Translations under genes and position numbers: made by a program
Shown here: piece after piece, positions 6,546 through 24,924 of the stretch
Numbering within the stretch: position 1 is the stretch's first letter
Layout of the letters: the number at the start of each line of letters is the position of its first letter
The notes under the pieces: generated by a model
The model's database searches: none
What the model was told of the DNA's origin: nothing
The model's input: only the letters and a program-made list of their open reading frames with translations
NCBI GenBank assembly: GCA_024655825.1
Contig: JANLFJ010000013.1
Span: 1 to 64,000 of the forward strand
Length of the DNA stretch: 64,000 bases
Source: Peptococcaceae bacterium
GTDB taxonomy: Bacteria; Bacillota; Peptococcia; DRI-13; PHAD01
Direction: 5' to 3'

Positions 6546-6989
6546 TCAATAGTAATTGAGGGCCTGTTCTCCCTCTTGGTTATTCATCAAGGGGCTGCTT
6601 TTTTCCGGCCTTGGGGAGCAAAGCCTCACACAGACCGGGTTCCCGCCGCACAGGTCGCACTTCAATATATACCCTTTTTCGGCGATATAAATCGCCTTGA
6701 ACGGGCAGGCCTTTACGCATTCATAACACCTGGCGCATTTATCCCTGTCGTAAACAACAACACCCGTCTCCCGGTTAAAGGCAAGAGCCCCAGCAGCACA
6801 GGCTTCAAGGCATTTCGGCCGGGAACAATTGCGGCAAGTATTGGGACTGTACGTGTTCGTTTTCTGGTCGTAGATAACCCTTATCCTTGCCAGGGACGGG
6901 TTGAATTGCCCTTCATTGTACAGCGAGCACGCCAGTTCGCACTGCCGGCAGCCTATGCATAAATTCTCTTTAACGTTTAACTTTTTCAT
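6546..6989 (-). CDS. Four-cluster ferredoxin-like electron-transfer subunit
   Basis: A 147-residue iron-sulfur protein with sixteen or so cysteines in ferredoxin patterns: CIGCRQCELAC near the N-terminus, CRNCSRPKCLEAC, CARCYECVKACP, and a C-terminal CDLCGGNPVCVRLC. This suggests four [4Fe-4S] clusters, as in HycB/AorA-type subunits that wire AOR-family enzymes to ferredoxin or another carrier. It lies 24 bases after the DAHP synthase gene and directly before the AOR gene, so a two-subunit aldehyde oxidoreductase is the natural reading. A BamC-like role was considered, but no Bam cluster partners are present. Confidence 0.88.
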   Translation of the reverse strand: MKKLNVKENLCIGCRQCELACSLYNEGQFNPSLARIRVIYDQKTNTYSPNTCRNCSRPKCLEACAAGALAFNRETGVVVYDRDKCARCYECVKACPFKAIYIAEKGYILKCDLCGGNPVCVRLCSPRPEKSSPLMNNQEGEQALNYY

Positions 6990-9243: not shown

Positions 9244-9280
9244 GACTTTATCCCCCCGTATGGTATTGGTTTGGTTCCCA

Positions 9281-10273
9281 TCAATCGCGAAAACTGTCAA
9301 GAGCCTTGTTTATTTCCGGCACCACTTCATACAAATCGCCGATTATCCCGTATTTTGCATAATTGAAAATAGGCGCATGAGGGTCCTTGTTTACAGCGAC
9401 GATCACTTTGCTGCCGCGGATCCCGGCAATATGCTGGACAGCACCCGATATGCCCAGCGCGATGTACAGCCTGGGCGACACGTTTTTGCCGGTCTGTCCG
9501 ATTTGAATGCCCTGTGAGGCGAGGCCGGAATCAACGACTGCTCTTGTGGCGCCGACCGTTCCTGCCATTTTTTTTGCCAGTTCCGCCAGCATTTTGAACC
9601 CTTCGGGGTTTTTTATTCCCCGGCCCCCCGAGACAATTATCTCCGCCTCCGTCACATCTTCCTGCCCCGGCTCCTGGGTCCGGGCGGCAATCAGCCTCCC
9701 CGGCGGCTCGTGGTCCAGCACATATTCAATCACGTCCAGTTCAGTTTTCCCTCTCGCCTCACCCCCCCCTTTTTTCAGGTTCGAAGACCGGCGGGCCATG
9801 GTGACTATATATGGCGGTTCTCCAGTAAAACTCAGCTGTGCGTGCGCTTTGCCGTAGAAAACCGGCCTGACCGCCTTCAACCTGCCGCCTTCAACAAACA
9901 CCCTGAGACAGTCTGAAATCATGGGAACCCCAAACAGAGCCGAAATCCTGGGGAAGAGGTCTTTTCCCATTATCGAAGCGCTGCCCATGATCAGGCGCGG
10001 GCTCAAATTCCGGGCAGCGGAAAAGAATGCGGGAGCGAAAACATGAACATCGTAGTTCTTGAAGAGCGTTGATTTCAGATAGTGCACGCACCGAATACCG
10101 CAGCCGGATATTTCTTTGATGCTCTCCGGTGGTTCATCCGCCATGACGATGGCCTCTATCTCCAACCCCAGCTGGCCGGCCAGGCAATTGGCAACATTGA
10201 TCAACTCAAAAGCGCTTTTCTTAAAACCCCCGTCCTTGTTCGTCTCTAAAAAAACCACAATTCTGTTATCCAT
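9281..10273 (-). CDS. etfA: Electron transfer flavoprotein alpha subunit
   Basis: EtfA of 330 residues, which with EtfB accepts electrons from acyl-CoA dehydrogenases. The C-terminal FAD domain is clear: GATRAVVDSG, QIGQTGKNVSP, GISGAVQH and AVNKDPHAPIF. The start has AAGGAGCA before it. It follows etfB after 15 bases and precedes the dehydrogenase gene, the usual arrangement. There is no N-terminal ferredoxin domain, so this is a classical Etf of the type that works with acyl-CoA dehydrogenases rather than the fused form. Confidence 0.93.
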   Translation of the reverse strand: MDNRIVVFLETNKDGGFKKSAFELINVANCLAGQLGLEIEAIVMADEPPESIKEISGCGIRCVHYLKSTLFKNYDVHVFAPAFFSAARNLSPRLIMGSASIMGKDLFPRISALFGVPMISDCLRVFVEGGRLKAVRPVFYGKAHAQLSFTGEPPYIVTMARRSSNLKKGGGEARGKTELDVIEYVLDHEPPGRLIAARTQEPGQEDVTEAEIIVSGGRGIKNPEGFKMLAELAKKMAGTVGATRAVVDSGLASQGIQIGQTGKNVSPRLYIALGISGAVQHIAGIRGSKVIVAVNKDPHAPIFNYAKYGIIGDLYEVVPEINKALDSFRD

Positions 10274-10288
10274 AACGTGCTCCTTAAA

Positions 10289-11047
10289 TCAAAGTACTTT
10301 TTCTATTTCCCGCAAAATTCTCACTAATTCCGCCGCGGCATTTCCCGGCTCACCTTCGACAAACCGGCAATCGCTCTTCTCCTCAACCGGATGAATCCTT
10401 TCGATTTCGAGACCGTATAAAACCGATCCCGGAACAGCCAGTTCCTCAATCCTAACCCTTTTCACTTCTTTTTTCCTGGCTGAGATAACGCCTTTCAAGG
10501 AGGGATAACGCGGTTCATTAATCCCTCTGGTTACCCCGACCACACAGGGTATCCCCGCCCGGATAACTTCAATATTGCCGTTTTCAGCCAGTCTTTCAGC
10601 AATCACTTCGTTCTCTTTCACCTGCAGCCTGATGGTATCTATCGCCTGGGGCCATCCCAGCAGGCCGGCCAGCATCCCCCCCACCTGGTGTGCTGAATTG
10701 TCCACGGATTGTTTTCCCATTAACACAAGATCTACTTTTTCCATTAAAACAATGTTTTTTATTATGCTCGCGATCCCGAACCCGTTGATATACCTGCCGT
10801 CTTCATTCACGACATGTACCGCGCGCTCAGCCCCCAGGGCCAGCGCAGAATAAAGGACTTCTTCCAGCCTGCCGTTCCCAATCGTGAGGGCAACAACTTC
10901 GACCCCGCCTTGCTTTTCTTTGATCCTAAGCGCTTCTTCCAGGGCATACTCATCAAAAGCATTCATCACGTATTTAAACGCATTGCCGTACCCGCTCACG
11001 TCTGCCGTCGTTTCAAGTACCCCTTTTATGCATACACCAATCCTCAT
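10289..11047 (-). CDS. etfB: Electron transfer flavoprotein beta subunit
   Basis: EtfB of 252 residues, the small subunit of the flavoprotein pair. The N-terminal CIKGVLETTADV and the central ALEEALRIKEK and GKQSVDNSAHQVGGMLAGLLGWP segments are typical; the last is the adenine-nucleotide binding and recognition region. It sits 16 bases after the methylaspartate ammonia-lyase gene and 15 before etfA. Whether the pair is of the bifurcating kind was not judged; the second nucleotide site motif cannot be settled by eye. Confidence 0.92.
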   Translation of the reverse strand: MRIGVCIKGVLETTADVSGYGNAFKYVMNAFDEYALEEALRIKEKQGGVEVVALTIGNGRLEEVLYSALALGAERAVHVVNEDGRYINGFGIASIIKNIVLMEKVDLVLMGKQSVDNSAHQVGGMLAGLLGWPQAIDTIRLQVKENEVIAERLAENGNIEVIRAGIPCVVGVTRGINEPRYPSLKGVISARKKEVKRVRIEELAVPGSVLYGLEIERIHPVEEKSDCRFVEGEPGNAAAELVRILREIEKVL

Positions 11048-11063: not shown

Positions 11064-12323
11064 TCATATCAATATTTTTACTCTATTTCGCGCGTTCACC
11101 AGGGCCAAAACCCGGTTCATCTCGTTGTGGACGATCATATACCCCTCATCAAATCCCATGCCCGGTTTGGCCATGCACAGGTCGGCCCCGCAGGCCAGGG
11201 CTATATTGGTACAAACCGCTGCTGACCTGTCAGTGCCGTTGCAGGTTCCCCCGCAGTATGCCCCAATCCCTTTTTTCTTGCAGTAAAGTATGGCCTTGGC
11301 CAGATTATTTACTCCGCCCAAATCGGGAGGTTTGATATGAATCATATCCGCAGCTTCCTCATCGACAAACTGTTTAATATCCTCCCAGGTGTTACACCAC
11401 TCGTCGGCCACAATTTCCACAGCGATCCTTTTGGCCTTTAACATGCGGCGCAGTTCTTTATAAACCTGCAGTTGAGCGGCCCTGTTTTCCATATCCAGCG
11501 GCCCTTCGATGCGCAACCTAAAAGGCATCGCCTCCAGGGCCAGTTCCCCGAAATAATTGGCTATCCTCTCCACATTGCTATCAAAGGCCAGGCCGACTGT
11601 GCCGTAGGTGTCAATATGGATAACCGGGCTGTAGGTCTCATTCTCTCTCAGGAGTATAATCCTGTCCCGCACCCAGCCAACGTATTCCTTCAATATTTCT
11701 CCCCTGGAGCCGAGTTTTTCCGCCACATTGTTGACCAGCCCATGGGGGAGGGCATCCACGCCCTTGAGAATCATTTTATCCGTGTTGGCAAAGCGTTCAT
11801 CCCCCGACTGCCCAAGAATAGGCACCCTCTTCATCTCTTGGGCGATCCTGTATTCATCCCTAATCACTTCGGCCATCGTAATCCTCCTGGCCTTCGCCAC
11901 GGCATCGAGGAGGGCCTGGGTAATCCCGTACCGCAGGGCCGGGTGCAGCCTTCTTCCCCTTAAAGCCAGCGTATCAATTTCACCAGCCAATTCGCGAAAG
12001 CTGCCAAGCTCTCTCCCCCGCAACAGTGGTGCAATAACCCTTTCAATAACCGGCAGGGAATTCTCCGCCAGGAATAGAGGTTCTCTTCCTCCAGCGCCTG
12101 AATACTGGACAGCAACGCAATCTCCCAAGGCCACCTGTCCATCTTCCAGTACGAGCATGACGGAGACGGCCTCACCCGGTTGCCTTATTTTTCTGAATCC
12201 CGCGGTAACCGGACTACCCGCATAATTAAAACCATCCCGGACCGCCCCCCTTCTTATTGCCTGCAGATCATCGTAAAAATATCCAGTTCGGCCAACGGAG
12301 CAGACAACATCTGCTATCTTCAT
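11064..12323 (-). CDS. mal: Methylaspartate ammonia-lyase homolog with H329 in place of Gln
   Basis: An enolase-superfamily lyase of 419 residues that aligns without gaps to the numbering of the characterised clostridial enzyme. Catalytic His194, metal ligands Asp238, Glu273 and Asp307, catalytic base Lys331 and Thr360-Cys361 are all present, as are Gln73 and Gln172. Position 329, a Gln that contacts the substrate in known enzymes (recalled, not checked), is His (MIHIKPPDLGG). The family adds or removes ammonia at mesaconate / 3-methylaspartate. No glutamate mutase (glmES) lies nearby, so the glutamate fermentation route is not encoded here. A role making or trimming an amino acid building block of the cluster product is inferred. 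Confidence 0.9.
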   Translation of the reverse strand: MKIADVVCSVGRTGYFYDDLQAIRRGAVRDGFNYAGSPVTAGFRKIRQPGEAVSVMLVLEDGQVALGDCVAVQYSGAGGREPLFLAENSLPVIERVIAPLLRGRELGSFRELAGEIDTLALRGRRLHPALRYGITQALLDAVAKARRITMAEVIRDEYRIAQEMKRVPILGQSGDERFANTDKMILKGVDALPHGLVNNVAEKLGSRGEILKEYVGWVRDRIILLRENETYSPVIHIDTYGTVGLAFDSNVERIANYFGELALEAMPFRLRIEGPLDMENRAAQLQVYKELRRMLKAKRIAVEIVADEWCNTWEDIKQFVDEEAADMIHIKPPDLGGVNNLAKAILYCKKKGIGAYCGGTCNGTDRSAAVCTNIALACGADLCMAKPGMGFDEGYMIVHNEMNRVLALVNARNRVKILI

Positions 12324-12346: not shown

Positions 12347-13330
12347 TCACTCCTGCAGCATTTCCAGCAAGGCCGCGTTCCAGCTGGTTCCCCACCCCAG
12401 CCCGTAAGCGATCATCAGCTCGCCTTTCTTAACCACTTTTTGCCCGGTTATATCCGTTAAATTCCTGATTGTGTCCACGTCGCCGGTGTGAGCGCCCTTG
12501 GGAATATTGTCCAAAAACACTTTCCGGATATCGATCCCCAGCAAGGAGGCATAAATCTCATACCCGCCGTAAGTCGTGTTTTGGGGACATATTACTTTGA
12601 TCGCCTCAAAATCAAGGTTGTTCCTTCTCAACAGCTCCTTCATCGTTTCGGCACCATCGGCAATATAATTTACCAGTTCACGGTAATTGCCTCTCTTGGT
12701 AAAGCTCTCGATGGTAAAACTGTAGCTGCCGGTAGTCCTTGACAAATAATCCCGTATCAGCAGTTTTCTGGGATTGCTCTCAATATAAAGCACGCCAGCC
12801 GCATCGCTGATCAGCGTTACCTGGACATTACGCTTTTCAAGTTCTTTGATTAAACTGGAAGACAGTATGAGCGCCGAGCGGTACCTTCCTGTCCTGATGA
12901 GGGATTCGGCCACATGGATGGAAGTAAGGGAAGCCCCGCAGGTCTGGTCCACATTAAAGGTAACGACATCTCTTTTCAAGTCGAATTTCTTATGAATGTA
13001 GTAAGGAACATTCACTTTACAAGCATGAATGGGCACGCCTTTGGTATAAATCAAAATATCAATGTCTTCCGGCCTGACACCCGAATCTTCGAAAAACCCG
13101 GCGACCAGGTTTTCAAATATTTCAACCTCTTCTTTTTCCTCTTCCACGTACACCCCCGTGATCTTTTTCTGCTTGTAAAACGATTCGCAGAAACTTTCCA
13201 TGTCGCTGTAACCTTCAGGAAGGGAAAAGTTTTTCAGGCTGTTGAAAAATTCATTTACACCAAGGTATTTCCCCGGCAGGTAATAATCGCTGTATGAAAT
13301 TCCAATCCTGTTATTCTCCAAACCCTTCAT
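12347..13330 (-). CDS. 3-oxoacyl-ACP synthase III-like protein, atypical active site
   Basis: A 327-residue thiolase-fold protein of the FabH group. The nucleophilic Cys131 is in DQTCGASL. The place of the usual PHQAN motif reads CPQNTTYGG, so the active-site His appears to be Gln, and the usual Asn (GNTS) is replaced by a GAHTGD segment that offers a His. The overall length and the C-terminal GLGWGTSWNAALL agree with the family. It starts 6 bases after the U32 gene stop, with AAAGGGATG before it. Variants of this kind can act as acyl transferases forming C-C, C-O or C-N bonds instead of chain-extending condensing enzymes. With a dedicated ACP nearby and no malonyl transferase or ketoreductase, a single condensation or acyl transfer is more likely than chain building. 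Confidence 0.82.
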   Translation of the reverse strand: MKGLENNRIGISYSDYYLPGKYLGVNEFFNSLKNFSLPEGYSDMESFCESFYKQKKITGVYVEEEKEEVEIFENLVAGFFEDSGVRPEDIDILIYTKGVPIHACKVNVPYYIHKKFDLKRDVVTFNVDQTCGASLTSIHVAESLIRTGRYRSALILSSSLIKELEKRNVQVTLISDAAGVLYIESNPRKLLIRDYLSRTTGSYSFTIESFTKRGNYRELVNYIADGAETMKELLRRNNLDFEAIKVICPQNTTYGGYEIYASLLGIDIRKVFLDNIPKGAHTGDVDTIRNLTDITGQKVVKKGELMIAYGLGWGTSWNAALLEMLQE

Positions 13331-13336: not shown

Positions 13337-14629
13337 TCATCCCTTTCCGTAACTGTAAAAGAGCCTGCTCGAATTAACGTCGTCCAGAGCTTTTTCAGCC
13401 CTGCCTATTATTCTTTTTCTTTCTTCAGGGTCTATCGACAGCGCTTTTTTCGCCCAGACCCTGCAGTAGGAGCAGGTTTCACCGGATAAATAATCATCTG
13501 GCGTTTTGGAGTCATAGTCGCTTTCGTCGCACATTTTACTGTCGCACTGGTAATGGTCTATGAAAAATTTCAAGAAGTTATCCAGCTTTGTGTTATCAAG
13601 ATAAGGGAGGGTATAAAAAATCGACTCGCGGTAATTGCGGAACAATTCTTCGTTATAGCCTTCTTCCTCAATCTGTTTCCAAAGGTGCTCGTCATGAAGC
13701 TTCCCGTAAAAATTGCCTTTCCCCACAAAATTTACGATATCCAGCAGGTTTCCGCGGTAGGACCTGTGGTGATAGGCTTCGGCCACCCTTAATAACCATT
13801 CGGTTGTCCTGCCTCTTTCGGTTAATTTGAGCGTCAGCCTGTCATACCCCACCTCCTGGCTCAGTTCCTCATAATAATGAATATCCTCTGGCCTGATCCA
13901 CTCTGAAGACACTATCCTGGAGGGGTCTTTAATCTTTAAAAGATTGCAGTTTAAGATCTGGTAATCGACATGAAACAGCCTTGTTTTGGCGTCATCCTTG
14001 GAACCGTGGGCATGAGTCACTGCATGGTTGGCGTGAAAGGGGCATTCGTGCAGGCAGCTGTTGTTGGCAATAAGCCTTATCGTAATATTATGGAGCTTTG
14101 CGTATTTCATCATTTGTTTCAGTTTTTTAAAGTCACGGTTGACGGTGTGAAACATCGTAACCTCGTCTGCCCCTAGCATTTTCCAGTATTGCAGCTGCGT
14201 AAGCGTTTGTACCTTATTGTAAATAGACACCGAAACATAAAGGTGAGGAAACTGGTTTTTTATTATTTCGCATAAATACGGGGAGGCGATTGTTACCCCA
14301 TCGGCCTTTATTGACGAAATCCTTTTCAACAGCTCAACGACTTCCTGGTGAAAAGACTTCTGGAACTCCATCCCGCCCAGGCACAGGGCGTTAAGCAAGT
14401 AATTGAACTTGATGTTGTGGCGGTGACAGTATTCTATATAATCAGCCAGCTCCTTCCATGACAGGATGGGCAGCCTGATCGAAGGCCTGCCTCCGCCAAC
14501 CACATCGTGGTTCATTTTTCCGTATACCCATTCAAAATCGCCATAAGTCGAAATAACATCAATGACTTGTTTATCGAAATTTGCGGCGAGGTCAAAGGTC
14601 ACTTTGCACTCTTTCCTGATTTCTTCCAT
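13337..14629 (-). CDS. U32-family protein, possible Fe-S oxygen-independent hydroxylase
   Basis: A 430-residue protein resembling the U32 'peptidase' family, whose characterised members UbiU, UbiV and RlhA are iron-sulfur proteins of O2-independent hydroxylation. A TIM-barrel-like N-terminal half is followed by a cysteine motif CLHECPF (C192, C196) with a downstream C228, then a C-terminal domain with more cysteines, including TCSYC (386-389). The ATG at 14629 is preferred over the upstream TTG at 14725 because AAGGGGAG precedes it. It lies 119 bases after the ACP gene. Prephenate is reported as oxygen donor for UbiUV/RlhA, and this operon has its own prephenate supply. Peptidase function is not supported by anything visible. 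Confidence 0.72.
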   Translation of the reverse strand: MEEIRKECKVTFDLAANFDKQVIDVISTYGDFEWVYGKMNHDVVGGGRPSIRLPILSWKELADYIEYCHRHNIKFNYLLNALCLGGMEFQKSFHQEVVELLKRISSIKADGVTIASPYLCEIIKNQFPHLYVSVSIYNKVQTLTQLQYWKMLGADEVTMFHTVNRDFKKLKQMMKYAKLHNITIRLIANNSCLHECPFHANHAVTHAHGSKDDAKTRLFHVDYQILNCNLLKIKDPSRIVSSEWIRPEDIHYYEELSQEVGYDRLTLKLTERGRTTEWLLRVAEAYHHRSYRGNLLDIVNFVGKGNFYGKLHDEHLWKQIEEEGYNEELFRNYRESIFYTLPYLDNTKLDNFLKFFIDHYQCDSKMCDESDYDSKTPDDYLSGETCSYCRVWAKKALSIDPEERKRIIGRAEKALDDVNSSRLFYSYGKG

Positions 14630-14748
14630 TTTTCTCCCCTTCGATCTCTTTATAATTTTTTTTATAATTTGTTTCATCTTGCTAATTTTATGACAACTGC
14701 CTTCCCCGCTGTACTTAACCTTCAAGCCAGGCCGGGCTTTTGCTTTGG

Positions 14749-15015
14749 TTAACTGATTTTGTTCATTAACCCAAGTTTGCTGTCAATCAGGTTGGCCAGC
14801 GCGTTTATTGTATTGAAATTTTCAGGGATCAATTCGGCGTCGTCAATTGAGATACCGTACATCCTCTCAATCTCCATGATCAAAACCAGAACTCCCGATG
14901 AGTCAATGATCTGTTGATCGAGCAGCTTGGAATCGTAAGCCAGTTCGTAAGCTGCGCTTCCAGCTAAAAATCTGTCTTTAATAAGCGTTTTCAGTTCTTT
15001 TTTAATATTTTTCAT
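14749..15015 (-). CDS. Acyl carrier protein
   Basis: A small 88-residue carrier protein. The phosphopantetheine site is DSSG with Ser39 as the attachment residue, followed by the helix VLVLIMEIERMYGISI typical of carrier proteins. The ATG at 15015 is favoured by AAGGAGCA; the upstream Met at 15039 lacks this. It sits between the GNAT and U32 genes in the operon, next to an acyl-AMP ligase that could load it. It is distinct from a fatty-acid AcpP by its neighbours and its lack of fab genes, so a pathway-specific carrier is inferred. No phosphopantetheinyl transferase is in the window. Confidence 0.88.
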   Translation of the reverse strand: MKNIKKELKTLIKDRFLAGSAAYELAYDSKLLDQQIIDSSGVLVLIMEIERMYGISIDDAELIPENFNTINALANLIDSKLGLMNKIS

Positions 15016-15044
15016 TAATCGATTGCTCCTTTCTTTCACATCCG

Positions 15045-15983
15045 TTAAATCAGGTTCGTTATAAACGTACCCTCGCGCGGGGCATCTATCTCTTCGCCCG
15101 CCGCCAGATCGCCGGGCTGTTCTTGACCGAGTAGAAACAGGGCATACTTTTTTTCCAGCACCTTTTTACTTCGTTCCCAGCCGGATAAAAAACGGTCGTA
15201 TTCGCTTCCTTTCGGCACTTTTAAGATCATGTAGGCAAAACCCTGTGTTTGTAAAAAAGCCATCATTTCGCGCAAACAAGCTGCCGATTCTTTTTTTTCC
15301 CCTTGTCTTTCCATATATATTTCCCCTATTTCAACTCCCTTCACCCCGTTGATAATGACTGTCGTAAAAGCAAAATACCCCGCTCTTAATCCCTTTTTCT
15401 CGGCAACAACGAAGCCGTGCTTGACCGGATGTTTAAAATACCTCCACTTTAAATAATCATTCTCTTTTTTGAAATCCAGGCCGTCTATGTCCGGTTCGTT
15501 CAGGAATTGAAAATGCAGCTTTTTCACCGCTGCGTCCCGGCAGCCGAGCGAGATGCCCCACCGGTGCAATTCGCGGTATTCATTGATCTGAAACATAAAC
15601 CGCCAAGTGATAAATGAATTGCGGTCTATGGGGAAAAAGACAAACCTTGGGCAGTCCTTTAACTCTTGCCGGCACAGTGTTTCCACAAACTCTTTCGCGT
15701 AGCCCTGCATACGGTAAGCGGGGTCAAAAATGACGTCCGAAAAAGCAGCCATCCTGCCGTGCCGGTCTTTCCCCAGGATGACGCCGCAGAAACCTATCGG
15801 CCGGCCGTCCTCATTAAGACAGCAGTACGCCCTGGCATAAGGATTATCAAAATACTTGTACCTGTAAAAACCCACTTCATGCGTTCTCAGGACATGGTTG
15901 TTGTTTTTCCAGTATACCTCCCACATCCCGCTCCACTGCTGAAGGTCCTTGCTCGACAGGGGTTCAATGCCTATTTTTTTCAT
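15045..15983 (-). CDS. GNAT-type acyltransferase
   Basis: A 312-residue protein with a GNAT acyltransferase domain in its first half: the strand IGFCGVILG, then the acyl-CoA pyrophosphate-binding segment YRMQGYAKEF. The second half looks like a further degenerate GNAT-like fold of the kind seen in two-domain family members. It lies between the acyl-AMP ligase (10 bases upstream) and the ACP gene. It could transfer an acyl group from CoA or from the adjacent carrier protein to an amine of the product. The substrate is unknown. Confidence 0.72.
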   Translation of the reverse strand: MKKIGIEPLSSKDLQQWSGMWEVYWKNNNHVLRTHEVGFYRYKYFDNPYARAYCCLNEDGRPIGFCGVILGKDRHGRMAAFSDVIFDPAYRMQGYAKEFVETLCRQELKDCPRFVFFPIDRNSFITWRFMFQINEYRELHRWGISLGCRDAAVKKLHFQFLNEPDIDGLDFKKENDYLKWRYFKHPVKHGFVVAEKKGLRAGYFAFTTVIINGVKGVEIGEIYMERQGEKKESAACLREMMAFLQTQGFAYMILKVPKGSEYDRFLSGWERSKKVLEKKYALFLLGQEQPGDLAAGEEIDAPREGTFITNLI

Positions 15984-15993: not shown

Positions 15994-17553
15994 TCACTTC
16001 AGGAGTTCTGCCAGGAGATCCCTTTTTAATTTGCCCGTGTTGGTCCGAGGAAGGGCTTCGACGAATACCACCCTGGCCGGCACTTTATGGCGCGGCAGGA
16101 CTCTTTTGCAGAATTCGTATATTTCATTCTCCGTCAGCCTCTCTTTCGGAACAACAAAAGCGTATATGGTTTTTCCCATGTAGTCGCTGAAGGTTTCCCT
16201 AATCCCGCTTTCTTCCTTGATGCCTATCACGCCGGCTTCGGCGACCAGTTCATGGGTCAGAAGCGCTTTCTCAATCTCGATGGGGAAGACCCTTTCCCCG
16301 CCTATTTTGATCATTTCGTCCATTCGGCCGGAAATATACAGGTACCCGTCTTCATCAAGTTTCCCAAAATCGCCGGTGTATAGATACGAATCCTTTATTT
16401 TCGAGGCCGTCGCTTCAGGATCGTTCCAATAGCACTTCATAATATTCGGCCCGGCGACGATAACCTCCCCGTACTCATTGGGCGGCAGTATGTTCCCTTC
16501 GGAGTCGACAATCTTTAAGTCCATTCCTTTTATGGGCCTGCCTACGGAACCCGGTTTCTTATCCAGCTCGTCCGGCTTCAGAATGGAAATCCTGGCAGTC
16601 GCTTCGGTTTGGCCGTACATCACGTAAACATCCAAGCCCATAGACCTCATCTCCGAAACAACCCAGTCGGCCACAGGCTCGCCGGCAAAAGTGACATATC
16701 TTAAAGCGGGCCATTCCAGTTCTTTAAACGGCGACCTTTTCAACAGCAGAATAAAATTCGAGGCAACACCGGCAATGCTTGTGCATTTCTTCTCTTTTAA
16801 ATCATTGAGAATATAGACGGGCAGCTGTGAATTGTTGTTGATGGTCAGCCTCGCGCCCCTGGCCACGTGGCTTAAAATGAGAGAGTTCCCATATGAGTAG
16901 TAAAAGGGGATTATCACCAGCATGTTGTCGTTTTCGTTAATGTCTATCCGGTCAATGATTTGCTCCATGTTCGCCAGGAGGTTCCTGTGCGTCAGGCAGA
17001 CCCCGTTGGGTAAACCTTTCGTCCCCGACGTGTAGATGATCTGGGCGATGTCGTTTTCATCCTGCCTGTAAAAGTCAGCAGGGTTATAATGCATATCGCT
17101 GTCGTCAAGAATAACCTTTTTAAAACTTTTTATTTCCATGCTTGTACCATTTTTGTATCGCTCAAATTCGTCATCGAAATTGTAACAGGTGATAGAGTCT
17201 AGCAATTTTTTGTCCAGGTTCAAGACAGTTTGCAGGTAATTGTTGTTGGTAAACAAGACCCTGATCCCGGCATTGGAAATAATCCTTTCCAGGTCGTATT
17301 CCTTATTGAGAGGATTGATGGCCACCACAATATTGCCGCTTTTGATTATGCCAAAATGGCAAACCAGGTAATCAAGGGAATTTTTGGATAGTATCCCCAC
17401 CGCAGTCCCCCGGCCGTACTTTTTTAGTTCCAGGGCCAGCCTGTCCGAGTAGTAGTCCAGTTCCCGGTACGTCATGTTTTCATCGCCGGCGCTGGCATAA
17501 ACCCGGTCACCGTACTTTTGGGCGCAGCTTTTAAGCAGTTCCTGGACGAGCAT
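15994..17553 (-). CDS. Acyl-AMP ligase / acyl-CoA or acyl-ACP synthetase
   Basis: An adenylate-forming enzyme of 519 residues. The ATP loop reads IIYTSGTKGLPNG, the mid motif MYGQTEA, the ATP-contact YLYTGDFG, the hinge SGRMDEMIKIGG, and the catalytic C-terminal Lys lies in NTGKLKRD. The ATG at 17553 is chosen for the GAGGAGGTG just before it; a longer frame starting at 17613 overlaps the previous gene. It most likely activates a carboxylic acid and loads the ACP encoded two genes on, or makes a CoA ester for the acyl-CoA dehydrogenases. The acid cannot be named from sequence. Confidence 0.88.
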   Translation of the reverse strand: MLVQELLKSCAQKYGDRVYASAGDENMTYRELDYYSDRLALELKKYGRGTAVGILSKNSLDYLVCHFGIIKSGNIVVAINPLNKEYDLERIISNAGIRVLFTNNNYLQTVLNLDKKLLDSITCYNFDDEFERYKNGTSMEIKSFKKVILDDSDMHYNPADFYRQDENDIAQIIYTSGTKGLPNGVCLTHRNLLANMEQIIDRIDINENDNMLVIIPFYYSYGNSLILSHVARGARLTINNNSQLPVYILNDLKEKKCTSIAGVASNFILLLKRSPFKELEWPALRYVTFAGEPVADWVVSEMRSMGLDVYVMYGQTEATARISILKPDELDKKPGSVGRPIKGMDLKIVDSEGNILPPNEYGEVIVAGPNIMKCYWNDPEATASKIKDSYLYTGDFGKLDEDGYLYISGRMDEMIKIGGERVFPIEIEKALLTHELVAEAGVIGIKEESGIRETFSDYMGKTIYAFVVPKERLTENEIYEFCKRVLPRHKVPARVVFVEALPRTNTGKLKRDLLAELLK

Positions 17554-17569
17554 ATCGAACACCTCCTCA

Positions 17570-18595
17570 CTAAACAATGTGTTCCAGTCCCAGTTTTCGT
17601 TTGCACTCGTCAATAACTTTTTGGTCCAGGCTTCCCTCCAGCCTGGCCAGCCCTTCGTCGCGGGTAATGACCCCGCTGCGGATCAACCCGCTGATCTCCT
17701 GGACATACGGGTTATAACCGTATTTTTTCAGGTGGACGTAATTGCCGAAAGCGTTCAACAGGCAGTTGGTCGAGTTTAAATCCGTGTTTTCGGGGTTTTC
17801 CCAGCCCAGGTCTTCAATCAAGGCCCTGACCTTTTCCATCCTGTATTCGTTAAAAAGCAATGGATTAATCAAATAAGGGATAGCGGGCGCGTTTTCCTCA
17901 AATTCGCGGGCCTCAAGAAAGTAGTTCTCTTGAAACCCTTCCAGGTGCGTCTTGTTGGCGTTGATAAACACTTCCTGGGATTTTGCCAGGAAAGAGGGGA
18001 GCGGTTTCAGGATGATGCCCCTGCGCTCTATTTGCCCGGGAGCCCACCCGAAAACCAGCATGGGGATTCTCTTTTCGACCGCCAGCTTTAACGAATTGTA
18101 CCGGATAAAATTTATGCAGGTGGTGCAGATGGCCGACGCTCTCATAATGGCTGCCCTTGAATATATTTGGTCGTTCAACGCGGCACTGGCAAAAAGCTTT
18201 TTCAACAGGTCGATCCTGGGCGAAAAAACGATGTTGTCCACATTAAGTCTTTCGGTAATGTTTTTGATGTTTTTCCTGGCGCCTTCTGAAATAAACCCGT
18301 TATCAAACGTGTAGGTGAGAACGTTTAGCCCGTATTTTTCTTTTAGGAGGTACAGAGTGTACGTGCTGTCTTTACCGCCGCTGAAGGCCAGCAGGCAGTC
18401 ATACCTGTTTTTGGACTTGATCGAATCAATGATCTGCAGGAACTGGTTCTCGTACTCCCGGCCAAACGCCCCGTTTTCTTCACTGGCCGGCGAGCGGCAG
18501 TAATTGCACACGCCGTCCTCCGAGAAGGTTATTCCCGGAAAGGCTTCTGGCAGCACGCACCTGCTGCAGACCCTGAGGCTTCCTGGAGAACTCAT
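17570..18595 (-). CDS. PP-loop ATP pyrophosphatase (N-acetyl sugar amidotransferase-like)
   Basis: A 341-residue enzyme with a zinc-ribbon-like N-terminus (CSRCVLPEAFPGITF...CNYC) and the PP-loop AFSGGKDSTYT. A CTTC motif follows in the middle. This layout is that of the WbpG/PseA amidotransferase-like group, which adenylates a carbonyl or amide and replaces it with nitrogen, usually with ammonia from a HisH-type partner. No HisH partner is here. An ATG at 18595 is preferred because GGAGGTGG lies just before it (two tandem ATGs, and a TTG at 18610, are alternatives). It is next to the NadE-like enzyme, giving two ATP-dependent nitrogen-inserting candidates in one operon. The substrate is unknown. 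Confidence 0.78.
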   Translation of the reverse strand: MSSPGSLRVCSRCVLPEAFPGITFSEDGVCNYCRSPASEENGAFGREYENQFLQIIDSIKSKNRYDCLLAFSGGKDSTYTLYLLKEKYGLNVLTYTFDNGFISEGARKNIKNITERLNVDNIVFSPRIDLLKKLFASAALNDQIYSRAAIMRASAICTTCINFIRYNSLKLAVEKRIPMLVFGWAPGQIERRGIILKPLPSFLAKSQEVFINANKTHLEGFQENYFLEAREFEENAPAIPYLINPLLFNEYRMEKVRALIEDLGWENPENTDLNSTNCLLNAFGNYVHLKKYGYNPYVQEISGLIRSGVITRDEGLARLEGSLDQKVIDECKRKLGLEHIV

Positions 18596-18640
18596 CATCC
18601 ACCTCCACAAACAGCTTTACTCGTTTCCAGGCCGCTGAGC

Positions 18641-19615
18641 CTACAATTCCATGGAACCGCAGGCCGGCGGGAGCATCTTAATGTGCATGGTGTTGTTTTT
18701 CTTGTTCTGGAAGTTGGCAAAGATCGCGGCAACCTGCTTTTCTTCCATCCCGACTATTTTTGCTGTTTTAGCCGCTGAAAAGTTCTTGGCGTGCGCGTAC
18801 AACAGCCTGTCCAGAATATCAAAGGGAAGCGAAAAGAAAAATTCTTCGTCGCTCACATAAGCGCTGCATGTGTCGGGTGACGGCGTCCTCTGCTGTATCT
18901 CTTCGGGAATCTTCAGGTATTTTGCCAGGTCATAGACCTGCGTTTTATAAAGGTGAGAAATAACCTCGAAATCTATCCCTCCATCCCCGTACTTGCAGAA
19001 ATTGCCCAGGTCGAATTCGGACCTGTTTGTCGTACCGGCAACCGCCATATTGTTTTTTTCGGAATAATAGTAGAGGTTGATCATTCGCACCCTCAATTTT
19101 ATGCTGAGAGCGGCCTGAAAAGCTTTGTAATCATGAAAGGGCAGTTTTTTCCTTAACACCTCGTTGCCGCTGCTGTCCACCACGGAAAGCGAGTAAAGAT
19201 TTAAGATCGATTTATCCAGCATGCCTGGAAGCACGATTTTATATTTGAATGACTCGTTAAATCCCGGGTGGTATTTCTTGACAATCTCTTCGATTTTTTC
19301 ATATACGCCGAACTGTTCAAGAATCGGGGTAATATCTTTTTTGACATAATTTATGCCCAGGGTTTCAGCAAGTTTTACTGCATAAGGCTCGCTTTCCTTG
19401 CTTGACTCTTTTTCCGGCAGCACAACACCCAGGACCTTGTCTTTTCCAAGCGCTCTCACGCACAGGGCTGCCGTTACGGAAGAGTCAATTCCCCCGCTCA
19501 GGCCGATTACCACCCCGTCCCTCTTGAGAAACTCATAAACAATTTGCCGGATGGAGTCGCAAATTTTCTGGCATTCCACAGCCCAGTCTTTTACAAAACA
19601 AATACTCTCGCTCAC
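18641..19615 (-). CDS. NAD synthase-like amide synthetase
   Basis: A 324-residue protein of the NH3-dependent NadE family, with the adenylation loop GLSGGIDSSVTAAL and GTTNRSEFDLGNFCKYGDGG, a family hallmark. It lacks a nitrilase glutaminase domain, so it would use free ammonia. It carries an insertion of roughly 50 residues in the middle (about 100-165) compared with short bacterial NadE, and starts with GTG after GGAGGGATG. It could be the cell's NAD synthase caught in the operon, but its place between biosynthetic genes suggests recruitment to adenylate and amidate a carboxylate of the product. Confidence 0.8.
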   Translation of the reverse strand: MSESICFVKDWAVECQKICDSIRQIVYEFLKRDGVVIGLSGGIDSSVTAALCVRALGKDKVLGVVLPEKESSKESEPYAVKLAETLGINYVKKDITPILEQFGVYEKIEEIVKKYHPGFNESFKYKIVLPGMLDKSILNLYSLSVVDSSGNEVLRKKLPFHDYKAFQAALSIKLRVRMINLYYYSEKNNMAVAGTTNRSEFDLGNFCKYGDGGIDFEVISHLYKTQVYDLAKYLKIPEEIQQRTPSPDTCSAYVSDEEFFFSLPFDILDRLLYAHAKNFSAAKTAKIVGMEEKQVAAIFANFQNKKNNTMHIKMLPPACGSMEL

Positions 19616-19666: not shown

Positions 19667-20788
19667 TCACACGAAAATGGAAATAAAACTTTTAATCCTG
19701 TCAGGATCGCCCCCCAGTATGGTCACGGCCCTGATGTCGCGATAAAGGCGTTCAAGTATGTTGCCCCTGATATAGCCGTACCCACCAAAAAGCTGCAGGC
19801 AGTAATCGCAGATTGCTTTTGCCTTTTCGGTAATTTTCAGTTTGGTAATGCAACAGTTCAAGAAATCGTTTTGTCCCGCCTGGCCGAACAGGGAGGCCGC
19901 ATTAAACGTCGCCAGCCTCATCAGTTCCAGGTCCGCCTTCATGTCGGCGAAATTGTATTTTACATACTGCATGTCGATAAGATAAGTCGAGTATATCTTC
20001 CTGATTTTTGCGTAGGCCAGCGCCTCCTCGTAAGCCCTTTCGGCAATCCCCAGCGCGATGGCGCAGTTGCTTATCCTCGCCAGGTTGGTGGCATTGGTGA
20101 TTATTTCCATTCCCTGGTTTACTTTTCCCAAAAGGCTCCCTTCATCCAGGGTCACATTGTTAAAAAACATGTCCGCGATCCTCAAAGACTGCAGTCCCAT
20201 GGTCTCTTCAGCCTGCCCTATCTCCACGCCCGGGCTTTTCAAGTCAACGATGAACGCCGACAACCGTTCCCTTTCCTCAACCGGTTCCTCGCTTGTCGCC
20301 GCGACCATGGCAAAATCGGCAAAAGGCGCGTTGGTAATCATTGACTTGCTGCCGTTCAAAACAAACCGGTTGCCGGCGGGCTTAAAGACTGTCCTGATCT
20401 CGGTCTGGGGCTCCACATAAGCGAAATTACCTTCCTTTTCTCCCAGGGCGCAGGGTCTTAGATACTTCTCCTTTTGTTCCCTGGTCCCATAGACAATTAC
20501 GGGGTAGGCAAAGCCGAAGTTTACGGTAGCCACCATGTGGGCTACGGCCGCGTCAGACCTGGCTATTTCGTTGATCACGATCATGGATGAAACGACATCC
20601 AGGCCGGCGCCGTCGTATTCCGGGGGAACCAGTAATCCCTTATAACCCAATTCGCCCAGCTTTTTCAACACCCCGGCAGGGTACTCTTGCTTGTTGTTGC
20701 GCTCATGGGCGCCTTTTTCAATATGCCTGTTAACCAGTTCTCTAACCGATTCCCTCAGACTGACCTGTTCCTTGCTGAACGCGAACAT
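19667..20788 (-). CDS. Acyl-CoA dehydrogenase 2, lacking the usual catalytic Glu
   Basis: A 373-residue acyl-CoA dehydrogenase-fold protein with the family N-terminus and FAD-binding segments (FAYVEPQTEI, LFGGYGYIRGN). At the C-terminus, where dehydrogenase 1 has IYEGTNQIQ, this protein reads ILGGDPDRI, so the standard catalytic Glu is a Gly. Some family members carry the base elsewhere (helix G), so loss of activity is not proven. It lies 40 bases after the TPP enzyme gene and 51 before the NadE-like gene. It may be a paralog working on a different, perhaps non-CoA, intermediate. Confidence 0.83.
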   Translation of the reverse strand: MFAFSKEQVSLRESVRELVNRHIEKGAHERNNKQEYPAGVLKKLGELGYKGLLVPPEYDGAGLDVVSSMIVINEIARSDAAVAHMVATVNFGFAYPVIVYGTREQKEKYLRPCALGEKEGNFAYVEPQTEIRTVFKPAGNRFVLNGSKSMITNAPFADFAMVAATSEEPVEERERLSAFIVDLKSPGVEIGQAEETMGLQSLRIADMFFNNVTLDEGSLLGKVNQGMEIITNATNLARISNCAIALGIAERAYEEALAYAKIRKIYSTYLIDMQYVKYNFADMKADLELMRLATFNAASLFGQAGQNDFLNCCITKLKITEKAKAICDYCLQLFGGYGYIRGNILERLYRDIRAVTILGGDPDRIKSFISIFV

Positions 20789-20828: not shown

Positions 20829-22532
20829 CTATTTTTGCAGTTTTAAGGCCTCGTTGAAAGAATGCACGCCTGGGCTGTACGCGTATTTGTCCACCATTAT
20901 GTTGATACAGGAGGGAAGTTTGGACTCCTTGGCCTTGGTTATGCTTTCCTCCAGCGTGTTCAGATCCGTGGCCAACCCGCCGACCCCCCCGAGCGCTTCG
21001 ACCATTTTGTCGTACCTGACCATTCCCAGGTCCGCCGCCTCAGTTTTCCCGTATAGTATCTCCTGGGTGGTTTTGCAAAAGCCCCAAGTCTGGTCGTTGT
21101 GTATGAAAACCATAACCGGAAGATTGAATCTTACCGCCGTATCCATTTCCAGGGCATTGAAACCGAAGGAACCATCGCCCGTGTATAAAACAACCTCTCT
21201 TTGCGGGTTGGCGGCTTTGGCGCCAATAGCCACGGCAACCCCCGTCCCCATAGGGCCGAACTGCCCGTCAGGCCCGTAAATCAGCTGGCCCGGGTAATTG
21301 CAGTCAAAACACAGTCCTCCCCAGAACATGGCATTGGAACCGTCCAGCACGATAAGCGCATCTTGGCCGATCATTTTTTTTATCATCTTAAGACCGTGCA
21401 GGGGGTGCAAAAACGGCGTGTCGCGGCATATGGATTCTCTTTCCAAATCATCCCAGAACTTGCGGTTGTTTTCTTTTAACTCGTCCAGCCAATCTTCGAA
21501 GTCGGGATTTTCCTGACTGGATAGTTCTCTGATCCTTGAACAAATTTGCCCCAGTACCCTGTCGACTCTCCCTGAAATGACCAGATCCGGCCGGCAGTTG
21601 CCATTTATTACCGTAAAGATTTCCTTATTAACAGCCACCAGCTTTTGTTTTTCGCCAAACCTGGGAGGTTTTAAGTTTTCTACCTGGTAGTCGCTTTCCA
21701 GCCCTACGGTGATGACGAGGTCGGCATTACGAAAGGCGTATAACTGCGGACCCGCCTCAAGCACCCTGCCCGGCCCCATGCACAAAGGGTGCGTGTCTGC
21801 GATGCAGCCCCTCCCCCTGCTGGTGGTATAAACGGGTATCCGGGTCAAATCTACAAATTCAACCAGTTCCGCTTCGGCATGGTCATAATACACCTCGTCC
21901 CCGGCAATGATTATGGGTCTCTTCGCTTTGGACAGCATGTTTAAAAACGCATCTATCTTCCCCGGTACGGCCATTGAGACATCGGAGGAAACCAGGTCGC
22001 AGTCAAAGGTGTGAACCATTTCAGTTTTTTGTTTCAAAATATTGATTGGTATTTCCAGCACCACCGGTCCTTTCCGGCCCGTGGAACTGAACTGAATGGC
22101 CCTGCTGACATATTCCGGAATTCTCGCCGGGTCATAAACGGTGCAAGCCCATTTGGTATACGGCCTGATTAAAGAAACCTGTTCACACTCTGCCAGAACA
22201 CCGTTGTCCCTTTGCTGCGGCACAATAGCGCCGGTTATAACCACCAGGGGAGTACGGGCATAATATGACTTAATGATCGCGCTTACGGCATTGGCAAAAC
22301 CGGGACCTCCGCTGATGATGGCCACCCCTGCCCTGCGGCTTGCCTGCGCCCAGCCGTTGGCCATCAAAACCGCTCCAGTTTCGGTACGTGTATGGATGAC
22401 CTTGATGCCGTTCTCCGCCAAGTACACGATGGTTGGTGACACCTGGTTTCCAATCAAGGTGAAAACGGTATCGACATTTTCTTTTTTCAGTTGCCGGGCC
22501 AGCAGTTCCCCTCCGGTAATTACCGCGTCCAT
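20829..22532 (-). CDS. TPP-dependent enzyme of the acetolactate synthase/decarboxylase family
   Basis: A 567-residue thiamine diphosphate enzyme with the three-domain layout of acetolactate synthase and 2-oxoacid decarboxylases. The cofactor-activating Glu51 is in TRTETGA, and the diphosphate-binding motif starts as YTGDGSFGFN and ends with NDQTWG. No regulatory subunit gene is present and no ilv genes are adjacent, so branched-chain synthesis is unlikely. Downstream of the prephenate decarboxylase- and bicupin-like genes, a 2-oxoacid (such as dihydro-hydroxyphenylpyruvate) is the natural substrate for decarboxylation or carboligation; that is inference. Confidence 0.85.
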   Translation of the reverse strand: MDAVITGGELLARQLKKENVDTVFTLIGNQVSPTIVYLAENGIKVIHTRTETGAVLMANGWAQASRRAGVAIISGGPGFANAVSAIIKSYYARTPLVVITGAIVPQQRDNGVLAECEQVSLIRPYTKWACTVYDPARIPEYVSRAIQFSSTGRKGPVVLEIPINILKQKTEMVHTFDCDLVSSDVSMAVPGKIDAFLNMLSKAKRPIIIAGDEVYYDHAEAELVEFVDLTRIPVYTTSRGRGCIADTHPLCMGPGRVLEAGPQLYAFRNADLVITVGLESDYQVENLKPPRFGEKQKLVAVNKEIFTVINGNCRPDLVISGRVDRVLGQICSRIRELSSQENPDFEDWLDELKENNRKFWDDLERESICRDTPFLHPLHGLKMIKKMIGQDALIVLDGSNAMFWGGLCFDCNYPGQLIYGPDGQFGPMGTGVAVAIGAKAANPQREVVLYTGDGSFGFNALEMDTAVRFNLPVMVFIHNDQTWGFCKTTQEILYGKTEAADLGMVRYDKMVEALGGVGGLATDLNTLEESITKAKESKLPSCINIMVDKYAYSPGVHSFNEALKLQK

Positions 22533-22587: not shown

Positions 22588-23196
22588 TCAAATCTCCAGC
22601 ACCAGCAAATAGCCGCTGCTCATCAACAGCAAGCTGAATTCTTCGCGGCCGGCCATCTGGTAAATTGTCATTGGCTGGAACTCGAATCCCACACCGTCGA
22701 TTTTTATTCTTGTTTCGCCCGGGGCGATAAAAAAGTAGTCGCATGTTTTTTTCGCGCTGATATTTATGAGCGCCGTGTTCTTTTTGTTCATTATTTTTCT
22801 GAGTTTCATCCCGTTTAGTTGTGCTGTCTCCAGCAGGAGGTCGTCGTTGTTAACTTTTTCTTCCAGCACATTTAATCTCAGGTCAACTGTTTCTTTACCG
22901 CCCGACAGGTATTTAACATCCATTGATTTGAAATCGGCTGCCGCATCGACCGAGTGTTCCGCTCCCGCGTTTATTAACAGGGAGTCTCCCCGCTTTACCG
23001 GATGCCTTATTCCCTTTACCGTGAGGTCAAATCGCCCTTGAAAGCAGTAAACGAACTGGTGGTGCGGGTGACTGTGGCCGTCAAAACCGGTGCCTTTTTT
23101 GATGTCATTGAGCAAAATCTCATAATTATCGGTTATAAAGTAAACTTGGTTAAACCCTTTCTTAACAAGTTTTGAATCTGTTATTTCTCTTATCAA
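22588..23196 (-). CDS. Bicupin protein, BacB-like
   Basis: A 202-residue protein with two cupin barrels. The first has a full metal-binding set: HSHPHHQFVYCFQG (about residues 41-54) and, after the turn, GDSLLINAGAEHS. The second (from about residue 120) lacks these His. The start is a TTG at 23196 after GGGGAG. It lies directly after the BacA-like gene (28 bases). In bacilysin synthesis BacB is a bicupin that isomerises the product of the prephenate decarboxylase BacA. The same neighbour pair and fold make that role the leading guess here, though bicupins are functionally diverse. Confidence 0.75.
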   Translation of the reverse strand: MIREITDSKLVKKGFNQVYFITDNYEILLNDIKKGTGFDGHSHPHHQFVYCFQGRFDLTVKGIRHPVKRGDSLLINAGAEHSVDAAADFKSMDVKYLSGGKETVDLRLNVLEEKVNNDDLLLETAQLNGMKLRKIMNKKNTALINISAKKTCDYFFIAPGETRIKIDGVGFEFQPMTIYQMAGREEFSLLLMSSGYLLVLEI

Positions 23197-23224
23197 ACAA
23201 ACCCACTCCCCGTTTTATTTTGCC

Positions 23225-23785
23225 TTATTTTGCCGCCTGGACCGGGCTGGCCGTTTTTATTCTTTCAAAAACATTCCAGCTCATCATAATCGGGCCGCAG
23301 TCTTTGATGACGTTAAGGCCGTATTCTTCAACGCAAATGTAATTCGTCATGCAGACATCCACCTCGCCCTCGGCTACCATTAATGCAGCCCTGCTGTTGC
23401 TTTCTGCAAAAATGATCTCCGCATCAGGGTAATATCTTTTGACCCAACTGCTGGGTGCAGGATGGGTGGCAATTTTTTTTATATCTGTCACCACAGGCTT
23501 TTTGCTCCCTATAACAAGCCTGGGTGTTTCGTAAACAAAAGTGTTTACAATTTTTATTGAATCGAAATTTTCAAATAACAATTTGGCAAAATTCTGATAA
23601 GCAGAAGGAACGAGGGCCAAATCCGATTCTCCTCTTTTCAAAACATCAATCGCCTCTTCAAAAGTGGAATACAGCCTTATTTCCCCTGTCAAACCGTTCT
23701 TGTCCATGTAGTACTGCGCAGTATATTCGCTGCATGTGCCGCGCGGTCCAAGGGTTGATATGACAATTTTCTTTTTGCTTTTCAT
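23225..23785 (-). CDS. Prephenate decarboxylase, BacA-like (degenerate prephenate dehydratase fold)
   Basis: A 186-residue protein whose N-terminus (TLGPRGTCSEYTA, residues 11-23) is that of prephenate dehydratases. The dehydratase catalytic motifs are gone: the ENS segment reads VPSAYQNF (59-66), the HP-QC segment reads THPAPSSWV, and the TRF motif is replaced by IMMSWNVF (166-173). From memory of BacA these replacements (VPxAY, HPxP, MSWxxF) are what the non-aromatizing prephenate decarboxylase has. That enzyme makes a dihydro-4-hydroxyphenylpyruvate instead of phenylpyruvate. No ACT domain is present. With a chorismate mutase-DAHP synthase in the same operon, prephenate is the likely substrate. 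Confidence 0.78.
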   Translation of the reverse strand: MKSKKKIVISTLGPRGTCSEYTAQYYMDKNGLTGEIRLYSTFEEAIDVLKRGESDLALVPSAYQNFAKLLFENFDSIKIVNTFVYETPRLVIGSKKPVVTDIKKIATHPAPSSWVKRYYPDAEIIFAESNSRAALMVAEGEVDVCMTNYICVEEYGLNVIKDCGPIMMSWNVFERIKTASPVQAAK

Positions 23786-23813: not shown

Positions 23814-24854
23814 TTATTTGCCCGGCTTAACGGCGGTGATGATGCTCCTGCTGGCCACAGTCGGGATGACCTGGATCCCTGAAAACCCCGCCTCTTCCAT
23901 AAATGTGCCGACCTCTCGGCAGGAATAACACTTGCCCCTTGTCGAAAGCATTAACAGTACCGAGTATTCCGCAATTTCCAGCGGGCCGTTCTTTTCGGGA
24001 TTGAGATGAGCGTCGTGGACGACAATCATCCCCTCGTCATCTAGCGCTTCGTATGATTTTTTCAGGAGTCCTCTGATTTCGCCCTCGTCCCAATCATGGA
24101 ATACATTTGAATAAAGATGAACATCATAACCCTCAGGCAGTTTTTCCTTGAACATATCGCTTCCGATTACAGTTATCCTGCCGGATAGCCCTCTTTTGTT
24201 TATTGAATGCCTGGCAATTCTATCAATAGGTGGTTTCTCCAGTACAGCGGCACTCATGTTTTGATGTTTAAGCACGATCGCCGCCGAATAAATACCAGAG
24301 GCCCCGCCGATGTCCAAAAGCCTGTTATAATCCTTAAAATCAATTCTCTGGGCGAGGACCGGTGCAAGAAAGGCCCCCCTGCTGTCCATCGCTTCCGTAA
24401 AATTCTCCGAAAATTCCTCTTTCTCCATGGCCAGCGCCCATTCTTTTTCATTCTTATTACCGCCCCAACCTTCCGGTTCACCGGTTCTCAATACCTTCAC
24501 CATATCCAGGCAAGCCGGACGGTTCATCTGCGTGGCTAAATAAGGCCCCAAATACCATTGGCTTGAATCGACCAAGTGCTCTCTGGCAAGCTCCGTCAGG
24601 TGTAATTCATTTTCCTTTTGTTCCAGCAGCCCGTATGCTTTGAAAAGAGTCAACATTACATCGGCAGGCCTTTCCTTTATTTTCAGGCCTTCGCATATTT
24701 TTTTAAGGTCTGCAGGATGTTCATTCAACCACGAAAAAAAGTTCAGGTGCGCGACAGCCGCTATAAACAGATCCGCGGCATACATGCCGTCGCGCAGCGC
24801 CATCAAACGGCTGGGATCAGTCGCCGGGTTTGTATCAAGTTTGTTTAAAACCAT
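23814..24854 (-). CDS. SAM-dependent O-methyltransferase
   Basis: A 346-residue class I methyltransferase of the plant-type/hydroxyneurosporene group: an N-terminal winged-helix dimerisation domain (about 15-110), the SAM loop LLDIGGASGIYS, and the catalytic His of NVFHDWDE. The family methylates phenol or enol hydroxyls and is common in natural-product clusters. It is the first gene of the operon, about 55 bases downstream of the sigma-54 promoter at 24909-24924, with GAGAGGTAGGT before the ATG. Confidence 0.87.
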   Translation of the reverse strand: MVLNKLDTNPATDPSRLMALRDGMYAADLFIAAVAHLNFFSWLNEHPADLKKICEGLKIKERPADVMLTLFKAYGLLEQKENELHLTELAREHLVDSSQWYLGPYLATQMNRPACLDMVKVLRTGEPEGWGGNKNEKEWALAMEKEEFSENFTEAMDSRGAFLAPVLAQRIDFKDYNRLLDIGGASGIYSAAIVLKHQNMSAAVLEKPPIDRIARHSINKRGLSGRITVIGSDMFKEKLPEGYDVHLYSNVFHDWDEGEIRGLLKKSYEALDDEGMIVVHDAHLNPEKNGPLEIAEYSVLLMLSTRGKCYSCREVGTFMEEAGFSGIQVIPTVASRSIITAVKPGK

Positions 24855-24908: not shown

Positions 24909-24924
24909 TGCAAGTTTTATGCCA
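24909..24924 (-). promoter_or_regulatory. Sigma-54 promoter of the biosynthetic operon
   Basis: The minus strand reads TGGCATAAAACTTGCA, with the invariant GG and GC exactly ten bases apart, as required for sigma-54. It lies about 55 bases before the methyltransferase start. Activator 1, encoded at the far end of the operon, or its two paralogs would be needed to open it. Confidence 0.85.

Follow-up and report, generated by a model that had tools for sequence, protein, structure and literature searches.

A BacA-BacB-like gene pair followed by a ThDP-dependent lyase gene in a 19-gene operon of a Peptococcaceae bacterium

Known BacA-BacB systems and the operon in the window

To our knowledge, prephenate decarboxylases have so far been described in aerobic or facultative producers, namely in the producers of bacilysin, aeruginosin and salinosporamide and in Photorhabdus. 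In a review (PMC9147277), BacA is described to decarboxylate prephenate without aromatization, and BacB to isomerise the product. No mention of prephenate decarboxylases in clostridia was found in the literature searched, the coverage of which is partial. In the Bacillus cluster for bacilysin/anticapsin, the BacA-BacB pair is followed by BacC, the ATP-grasp protein BacD and the aminotransferase BacF, and there is neither a ThDP lyase nor an acyl carrier protein (ACP).

A similar pair is located in the stretch of DNA analysed here (64,000 nucleotides of contig JANLFJ010000013.1, hereafter the window). As in Bacillus, a protein with the prephenate dehydratase (PDT) fold but without the dehydratase residues is encoded beside an HxHx3Q...H bicupin, in the same gene order, whereas the identity is only ~30% for BacA and ~15% for BacB, and Bacillus BacB has two metal sites. 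Genes like those for BacC, BacD or BacF are not annotated in the operon of the window, and have no tblastn match in the loci of G011, G012, G014, Cellulosilyticum ruminicola and Clostridium akagii. The cyanobacterial pair AerD-AerE (for the Choi moiety of aeruginosin) is alike in that the cupins of loci L047 and L087 have one metal site and AerE is a top fold match of the bicupin; the differences are that the producers are aerobic, that the identity to the BacA-like protein is ~32–35%, and that neither a ThDP lyase nor a DAHP synthase-chorismate mutase was found in the cyanobacterial loci. The dihydrophenylalanine-type BacA of Photorhabdus shares the BacA signature residues, while its locus has an aminotransferase nearby and no BacB-like match. 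Finally, Phaeobacter TdaC and the DUF6421-associated proteins belong to the same superfamily with HPAP and T147 conserved, but they lack P88, W170 and F173, and mostly S131. TdaC (L139:4926-5528) and the small DUF6421-/ATP-grasp-associated proteins (L023, L024, L025, L028 and L140; from Pseudoalteromonas, Pantoea, Staphylococcus, Proteus and Serpentinimonas) have a PMxFTxH-like end.

The pair lies in an operon of 19 genes on the minus strand (24854 to 4575), in which neighbouring genes overlap or are separated by small gaps. The genes are listed in the order of transcription.

23814..24854, minus strand: methyltransferase (Methyltransf_2 type), first gene (PF00891; nearest solved structure 5i2h, and SibL; conserved neighbour in G011 and G012)
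23225..23785, minus strand: BacA-like prephenate decarboxylase candidate, 186 aa (Pfam, alignment, tree, model, motifs)
22588..23196, minus strand: BacB/AerE-like bicupin isomerase candidate, metal site H41, H43, Q47, H81 (phmmer, ligands, fold)
20829..22532, minus strand: ThDP-dependent lyase/decarboxylase (benzaldehyde lyase/2-hydroxyacyl-CoA lyase type; Pfam; E51 and GDG...ND intact)
19667..20788, minus strand: acyl-CoA/ACP dehydrogenase 1 (Pfam; conserved in operon)
18641..19615, minus strand: NadE-like ATP-dependent amide synthetase (NF002048, 369.9 bits against a cut-off of 313; conserved)
17570..18610, minus strand: WbuX-like PP-loop amidotransferase (TIGR03573, 170 bits, under the cut-off of 203; conserved)
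15994..17613, minus strand: AMP-forming acyl ligase (PF00501; conserved)
15045..15983, minus strand: GNAT-family acyltransferase (PF00583)
14749..15039, minus strand: acyl carrier protein (PF00550)
13337..14725, minus strand: U32-family protein with conserved Cys C224-x3-C228 and C260 (PF01136; alignment)
12347..13330, minus strand: KAS III-like condensing enzyme (PF08541/PF08545; nearest solved FabH)
11064..12323, minus strand: methylaspartate ammonia-lyase family enzyme (PF07476, 356.6 bits)
10289..11047, minus strand: EtfB (PF01012)
9281..10273, minus strand: EtfA (PF00766)
8104..9300, minus strand: acyl-CoA/ACP dehydrogenase 2 (PF00441)
7014..8075, minus strand: chorismate mutase-DAHP synthase fusion (PF01817 and PF00793; conserved in G011, G012, G014 and Acetivibrio mesophilus)
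6546..6989, minus strand: ferredoxin-type 4Fe-4S protein (PF13247)
4575..6518, minus strand: aldehyde ferredoxin oxidoreductase, operon end (PF01314; not seen after the ferredoxin gene in G011/G012)

From the methyltransferase gene through the ferredoxin gene, G011 and G012 are collinear with the window, apart from one extra acyl-CoA/ACP dehydrogenase gene, while most of the operon is found in C. ruminicola and a reduced form in G014 (UBA5318). The G014 copy (L012:8295-10323) has apparently lost the stretch that separates the middle of the AMP ligase from the chorismate mutase-DAHP synthase, and is adjoined by a phosphopantetheinyl transferase gene. In C. ruminicola, the U32 gene (L141:17795-19047) is read as two overlapping reading frames and may be frameshifted. 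This surrounding operon, which the sequence-only reading of the window had missed, is the more informative part of the locus.

The BacA-like protein, the bicupin and their relatives

Both ORFs of the pair (23225-23785 and 22588-23196, minus strand) were confirmed at the positions given in the sequence-only reading. They have plausible ribosome-binding sites and are separated by a gap of 28 bp. PDT is the sole Pfam match of the BacA-like protein (49.9 bits, over the gathering score), while it gets 52.9 bits with the NCBIfam PDT model, far under the cut-off of 219. Its model (pLDDT 91.9) has PDT among the top fold matches, and the fold comes without an ACT domain. In the alignment with PDTs, VPxENS is changed to VP--SAY, HPQAL to HPAPS and TRF to MSW. 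The fold and the His-Pro of HPQAL are kept; the catalytic motifs ENS and TRF are absent. The same columns read VP--HAY, HPSP and MSW in BacA of B. spizizenii. The replaced motifs had been noticed in the sequence-only reading, which had also given the same replacements for BacA; both are confirmed by the alignment, the latter in the Bacillus, cyanobacterial and Photorhabdus loci. Moreover, the whole BacA signature (T11, S19-E20, A62-Y63, T87-P88, HPxP, S129-x-S131, T147 and M168-x-W170) is present. S19, A62, T87-P88, S131, W170 and F173 are common to the anaerobic proteins and canonical BacA, and this set is missing from the TdaC-type, BacA2 and PDT groups in a column comparison. The identity to the known aerobic/facultative BacA groups is only about 28–37%.

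In the bicupin, the HxHx3Q...H site is intact in domain 1 (H41, H43, Q47 and H81) and lost in domain 2; the sequence-only reading had likewise seen one intact metal site. The ligand pattern is that of BacB, in which Gln replaces the Glu of common cupins, and the ligands H, H, Q and H are invariant across the window protein, the fusion proteins (see below), Bacillus BacB and the AerE-type homologues. The assumed resemblance to BacB is thus borne out by the ligands, by sequence (phmmer against B. subtilis BacB, E=2e-5) and by fold: with the AlphaFold model (pLDDT 87.6) as Foldseek query, PDB ranks 1–6 are taken by BacB (3h7y, 3h7j and 3h9a) and AerE (5zbe and 5zbf), with TM (query) of 0.71–0.76 over ~210 columns. 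A single metal site also occurs in the cyanobacterial AerE-type homologues (L047 and L087), which have lost the domain 2 site as well, and in a Streptomyces homologue. One site is therefore compatible with function, and the second is not universal among the members.

Among the genomes of the class that were searched, orthologues of the pair are present in three others of the same order (66–70% identity), inside the conserved operon, and dN/dS between two of these three is 0.02 for BacA and 0.07 for BacB; this conservation speaks against a chance finding. A scan of GTDB with an alignment added relatives in five more clostridial genomes, with identities of 52% (C. ruminicola), 50% (C. akagii), 49% (A. 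mesophilus), 46% (an uncultured Eubacteriales) and 44% (Petralouisia muris), while a scan of GTDB contigs with the single protein as query gave no matches. The BacA domain and the HxHx3Q cupin are joined in one polypeptide in C. ruminicola and C. akagii (375 and 353 aa), and a single-domain HxHx3Q cupin lies within the cluster in A. mesophilus, the uncultured Eubacteriales and P. muris. Two samples of ~390–400 genomes contained no further high-score members of the anaerobic clade, which indicates that the cluster is rare. COX1 and cytochrome bd oxidase were not found in any of the nine genomes with an anaerobic-clade BacA, and the same search found terminal oxidases in B. spizizenii and Photorhabdus; by gene content, these nine organisms are therefore anaerobes, in agreement with the sequence-only reading of a BacA/BacB-like pair in an anaerobe.

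In A. mesophilus, the BacA domain lies at the C-terminal end of a larger protein of 452 aa (L034:9161-10519), the N-terminal part of which resembles a QueG-type Fe-S protein. In the gut-type clusters (L035:4734-8991 and L036), genes for a homocitrate-synthase-like enzyme and a LeuCD-like dehydratase adjoin BacA, which suggests 2-oxo acid chain elongation. There is also a second BacA-like gene in the genome (L019:6361-7014, at ~56.4–57.0 kb of contig C4 of G000), encoding 217 aa with 27% identity to the first. It belongs to a separate cluster with genes for two radical-SAM proteins, an Fe-S protein, a carrier protein, a subtilase and an AMP ligase, and an orthologous cluster is found in G014 (L020). 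In L035 and L036, which come from gut anaerobes, both BacA types occur within one cluster, suggesting that the two clusters may be parts of a single pathway.

The ThDP lyase, prephenate supply and regulation

The gene for the ThDP lyase directly follows the BacA-BacB pair in all six closest clusters. The catalytic Glu and the GDG...ND motif are kept in 6/6 clusters, and among solved structures the enzyme is closest to benzaldehyde lyase, formolase and 2-hydroxyacyl-CoA lyase. A tblastn search with representative queries located an aminotransferase in 59 of the 72 other (canonical) BacA loci and the ThDP lyase in none of them. The five closest loci searched in this way gave no aminotransferase, and none is annotated in the operon of the window. 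Judging from gene order and enzyme family, the non-aromatic 2-oxo acid is likely decarboxylated or ligated rather than transaminated, while a housekeeping aminotransferase from another part of the genome could still be involved. We know of no published pathway that joins BacA-BacB to a ThDP lyase.

The chorismate mutase-DAHP synthase of the operon is one of three DAHP synthases in the genome, another of which adjoins the true PDT. The cluster of A. mesophilus has a chorismate mutase-DAHP synthase with 69% identity, and in the uncultured Eubacteriales a DAHP synthase gene lies ~13 kb from the BacA gene. The extra copy and its counterparts near BacA tie the cluster to prephenate supply.

The U32-family protein shares the operon with this supply, which is noteworthy because U32 oxidases have been linked to prephenate as a hydroxyl source (PMC11574389). 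The cluster motif of the UbiU/TrhP-type oxidases is CX6CX15CX3C (PMC11574389), while the operon protein has CX3C followed by a Cys 31 residues on. We did not adopt a role as prephenate-using oxygenase, since this spacing does not fit the motif.

Two features point to regulation of the operon in the window by sigma-54.

24910..24924, minus strand: putative sigma-54 (-24/-12) promoter TGGCAT-N5-TTGC (exact consensus; 55 bp upstream of the first start codon of the operon)
2477..4504, minus strand: sigma-54 enhancer-binding regulator adjoining the operon (PF00158, PAS and HTH_8)

The window contains four exact elements against 0.46 expected, a number reached by one of 100 shuffles. No such element was found upstream of the operons in G011 and G012, so sigma-54 regulation is not conserved. 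Two more exact elements (45949-45963 and 60060-60074, minus strand) are upstream of an acetoin/pyruvate dehydrogenase operon and a TRAP transporter operon, respectively, each near a sigma-54 activator gene. In G011 and G012, agr-type quorum-sensing genes (AgrB and GHKL kinase; L014:380-1848 and L016-L017) lie directly upstream of the operon, with a LytTR regulator in G012.

Proposed pathway and alternative readings

The BacA/BacB interpretation is supported at the level of sequence, structure and context, and the description that fits the locus best is a variant of the BacA-BacB module that is specific to anaerobes and set in a new operon context. As judged from sequence, the two candidates probably convert prephenate to a ring compound that is not aromatic. 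We assume, with a probability of roughly three in four, that they open an anaerobic biosynthetic pathway by catalysing its first two committed reactions and are followed by the ThDP lyase. From its domains, the operon's own DAHP synthase-chorismate mutase would raise prephenate, which the BacA-like enzyme would bind in a PDT fold devoid of dehydratase residues. Considering its family and residues, this enzyme would remove CO2 and keep the ring hydroxyl, giving the endocyclic dihydro-4-hydroxyphenylpyruvate, and the BacB/AerE-like cupin, with one metal on three His and one Gln, would shift a double bond, so that the conjugated exocyclic isomer results. The ThDP lyase, in place of an aminotransferase, may then decarboxylate the 2-oxo acid or form a C-C bond. 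More speculatively, the product could pass to the AMP ligase, ACP, flavin dehydrogenases, KAS III and amidating enzymes to become a small molecule. The chances seem evenly balanced that this is a new class of anaerobic pathway, leading from the BacA-BacB 2-oxo acid via the ThDP lyase and an ACP line to a cyclohexenyl or cyclohexadienyl metabolite.

Other identities of the BacA-like protein were weighed with a tree of 118 sequences, which includes 24 PDTs and no periplasmic cyclohexadienyl dehydratase. The true PDTs, with which the sequence-only reading had expected no grouping, form one side of a branch with 100/100 support, and the BacA-like protein is on the other. On this branch and the lost ENS and TRF motifs, an identity as true PDT was rejected. 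That the protein is an ordinary PDT supplying phenylpyruvate as the aromatic precursor of the operon is extremely improbable, since its Pfam PDT match is set against the absent ACT domain and a true PDT (202.5 bits) encoded on a separate contig of the genome. Judged on domain matches only, a periplasmic cyclohexadienyl dehydratase is also unlikely; there is no Pfam match to an SBP domain, and in the fold search with the model, AncCDT-1, an ancestral protein, comes no higher than rank 35. When the tree is rooted on the PDTs, with a long root branch, the anaerobic sequences fall just outside a group (97/99) of canonical BacA, the TdaC/DUF6421-associated proteins and the BacA2 paralogues. This position would fit a protein siding with the TdaC/DUF6421-type relatives and catalysing a different reaction, perhaps not on prephenate, as would C145 and G164, shared with the TdaC-type group, and the role of TdaC itself, described as obscure (PMC7497051). 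Nevertheless, we consider such an enzyme very unlikely, because the PMxFTxH end and NCE start of that group are missing, the canonical T87-P88, S131, W170 and F173 are present, and a DAHP synthase-chorismate mutase is encoded within the same operon. In addition, forcing the anaerobic sequences together with canonical BacA costs 4.6 log units and is not rejected (AU p=0.308), although the best tree places them outside; a constraint that unites the nine anaerobic sequences has a cost of 0.1 log units (p=0.471) and is not rejected either.

The step after decarboxylation leaves somewhat more room. The BacA-like enzyme could decarboxylate prephenate without aromatization while the cupin catalyses a reaction other than that of BacB, for example after the ThDP lyase or to another tautomer, so that the product would not be ex-H2HPP. 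The lost second cupin site, the low sequence identity, the gut-type clusters with a single-domain cupin only and the novelty of a ThDP lyase in a BacA-BacB setting are in line with this. We hold it to be unlikely, as BacB and AerE rank first in the fold search, the metal ligands are identical to those of BacB, and both gene order and fusion place the cupin directly after BacA. The operon might also be catabolic, degrading a cyclic acid via CoA esters with Etf and acyl-CoA dehydrogenases, with the BacA-like protein as a by-player. The sigma-54 regulator, Etf, the acyl-CoA dehydrogenases, the AMP ligase, the aldehyde ferredoxin oxidoreductase and the nearby TRAP transporters could all serve such a purpose, but ACP, KAS III and the dedicated DAHP synthase-chorismate mutase point to synthesis, as do the phosphopantetheinyl transferase gene beside the G014 copy and the agr locus upstream in G011 and G012, which leaves catabolism a very small probability.

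For the preferred reading, prephenate decarboxylation followed by isomerisation, the substrate prediction for the pair is sharp and within reach of a simple two-enzyme assay. The module probably starts a secondary metabolite pathway. The strictly anaerobic version of BacA-BacB, together with its fusions and with the ThDP lyase in the place of the usual aminotransferase, points to a so far uncharted shikimate-derived route in clostridia, gut and rumen species among them.
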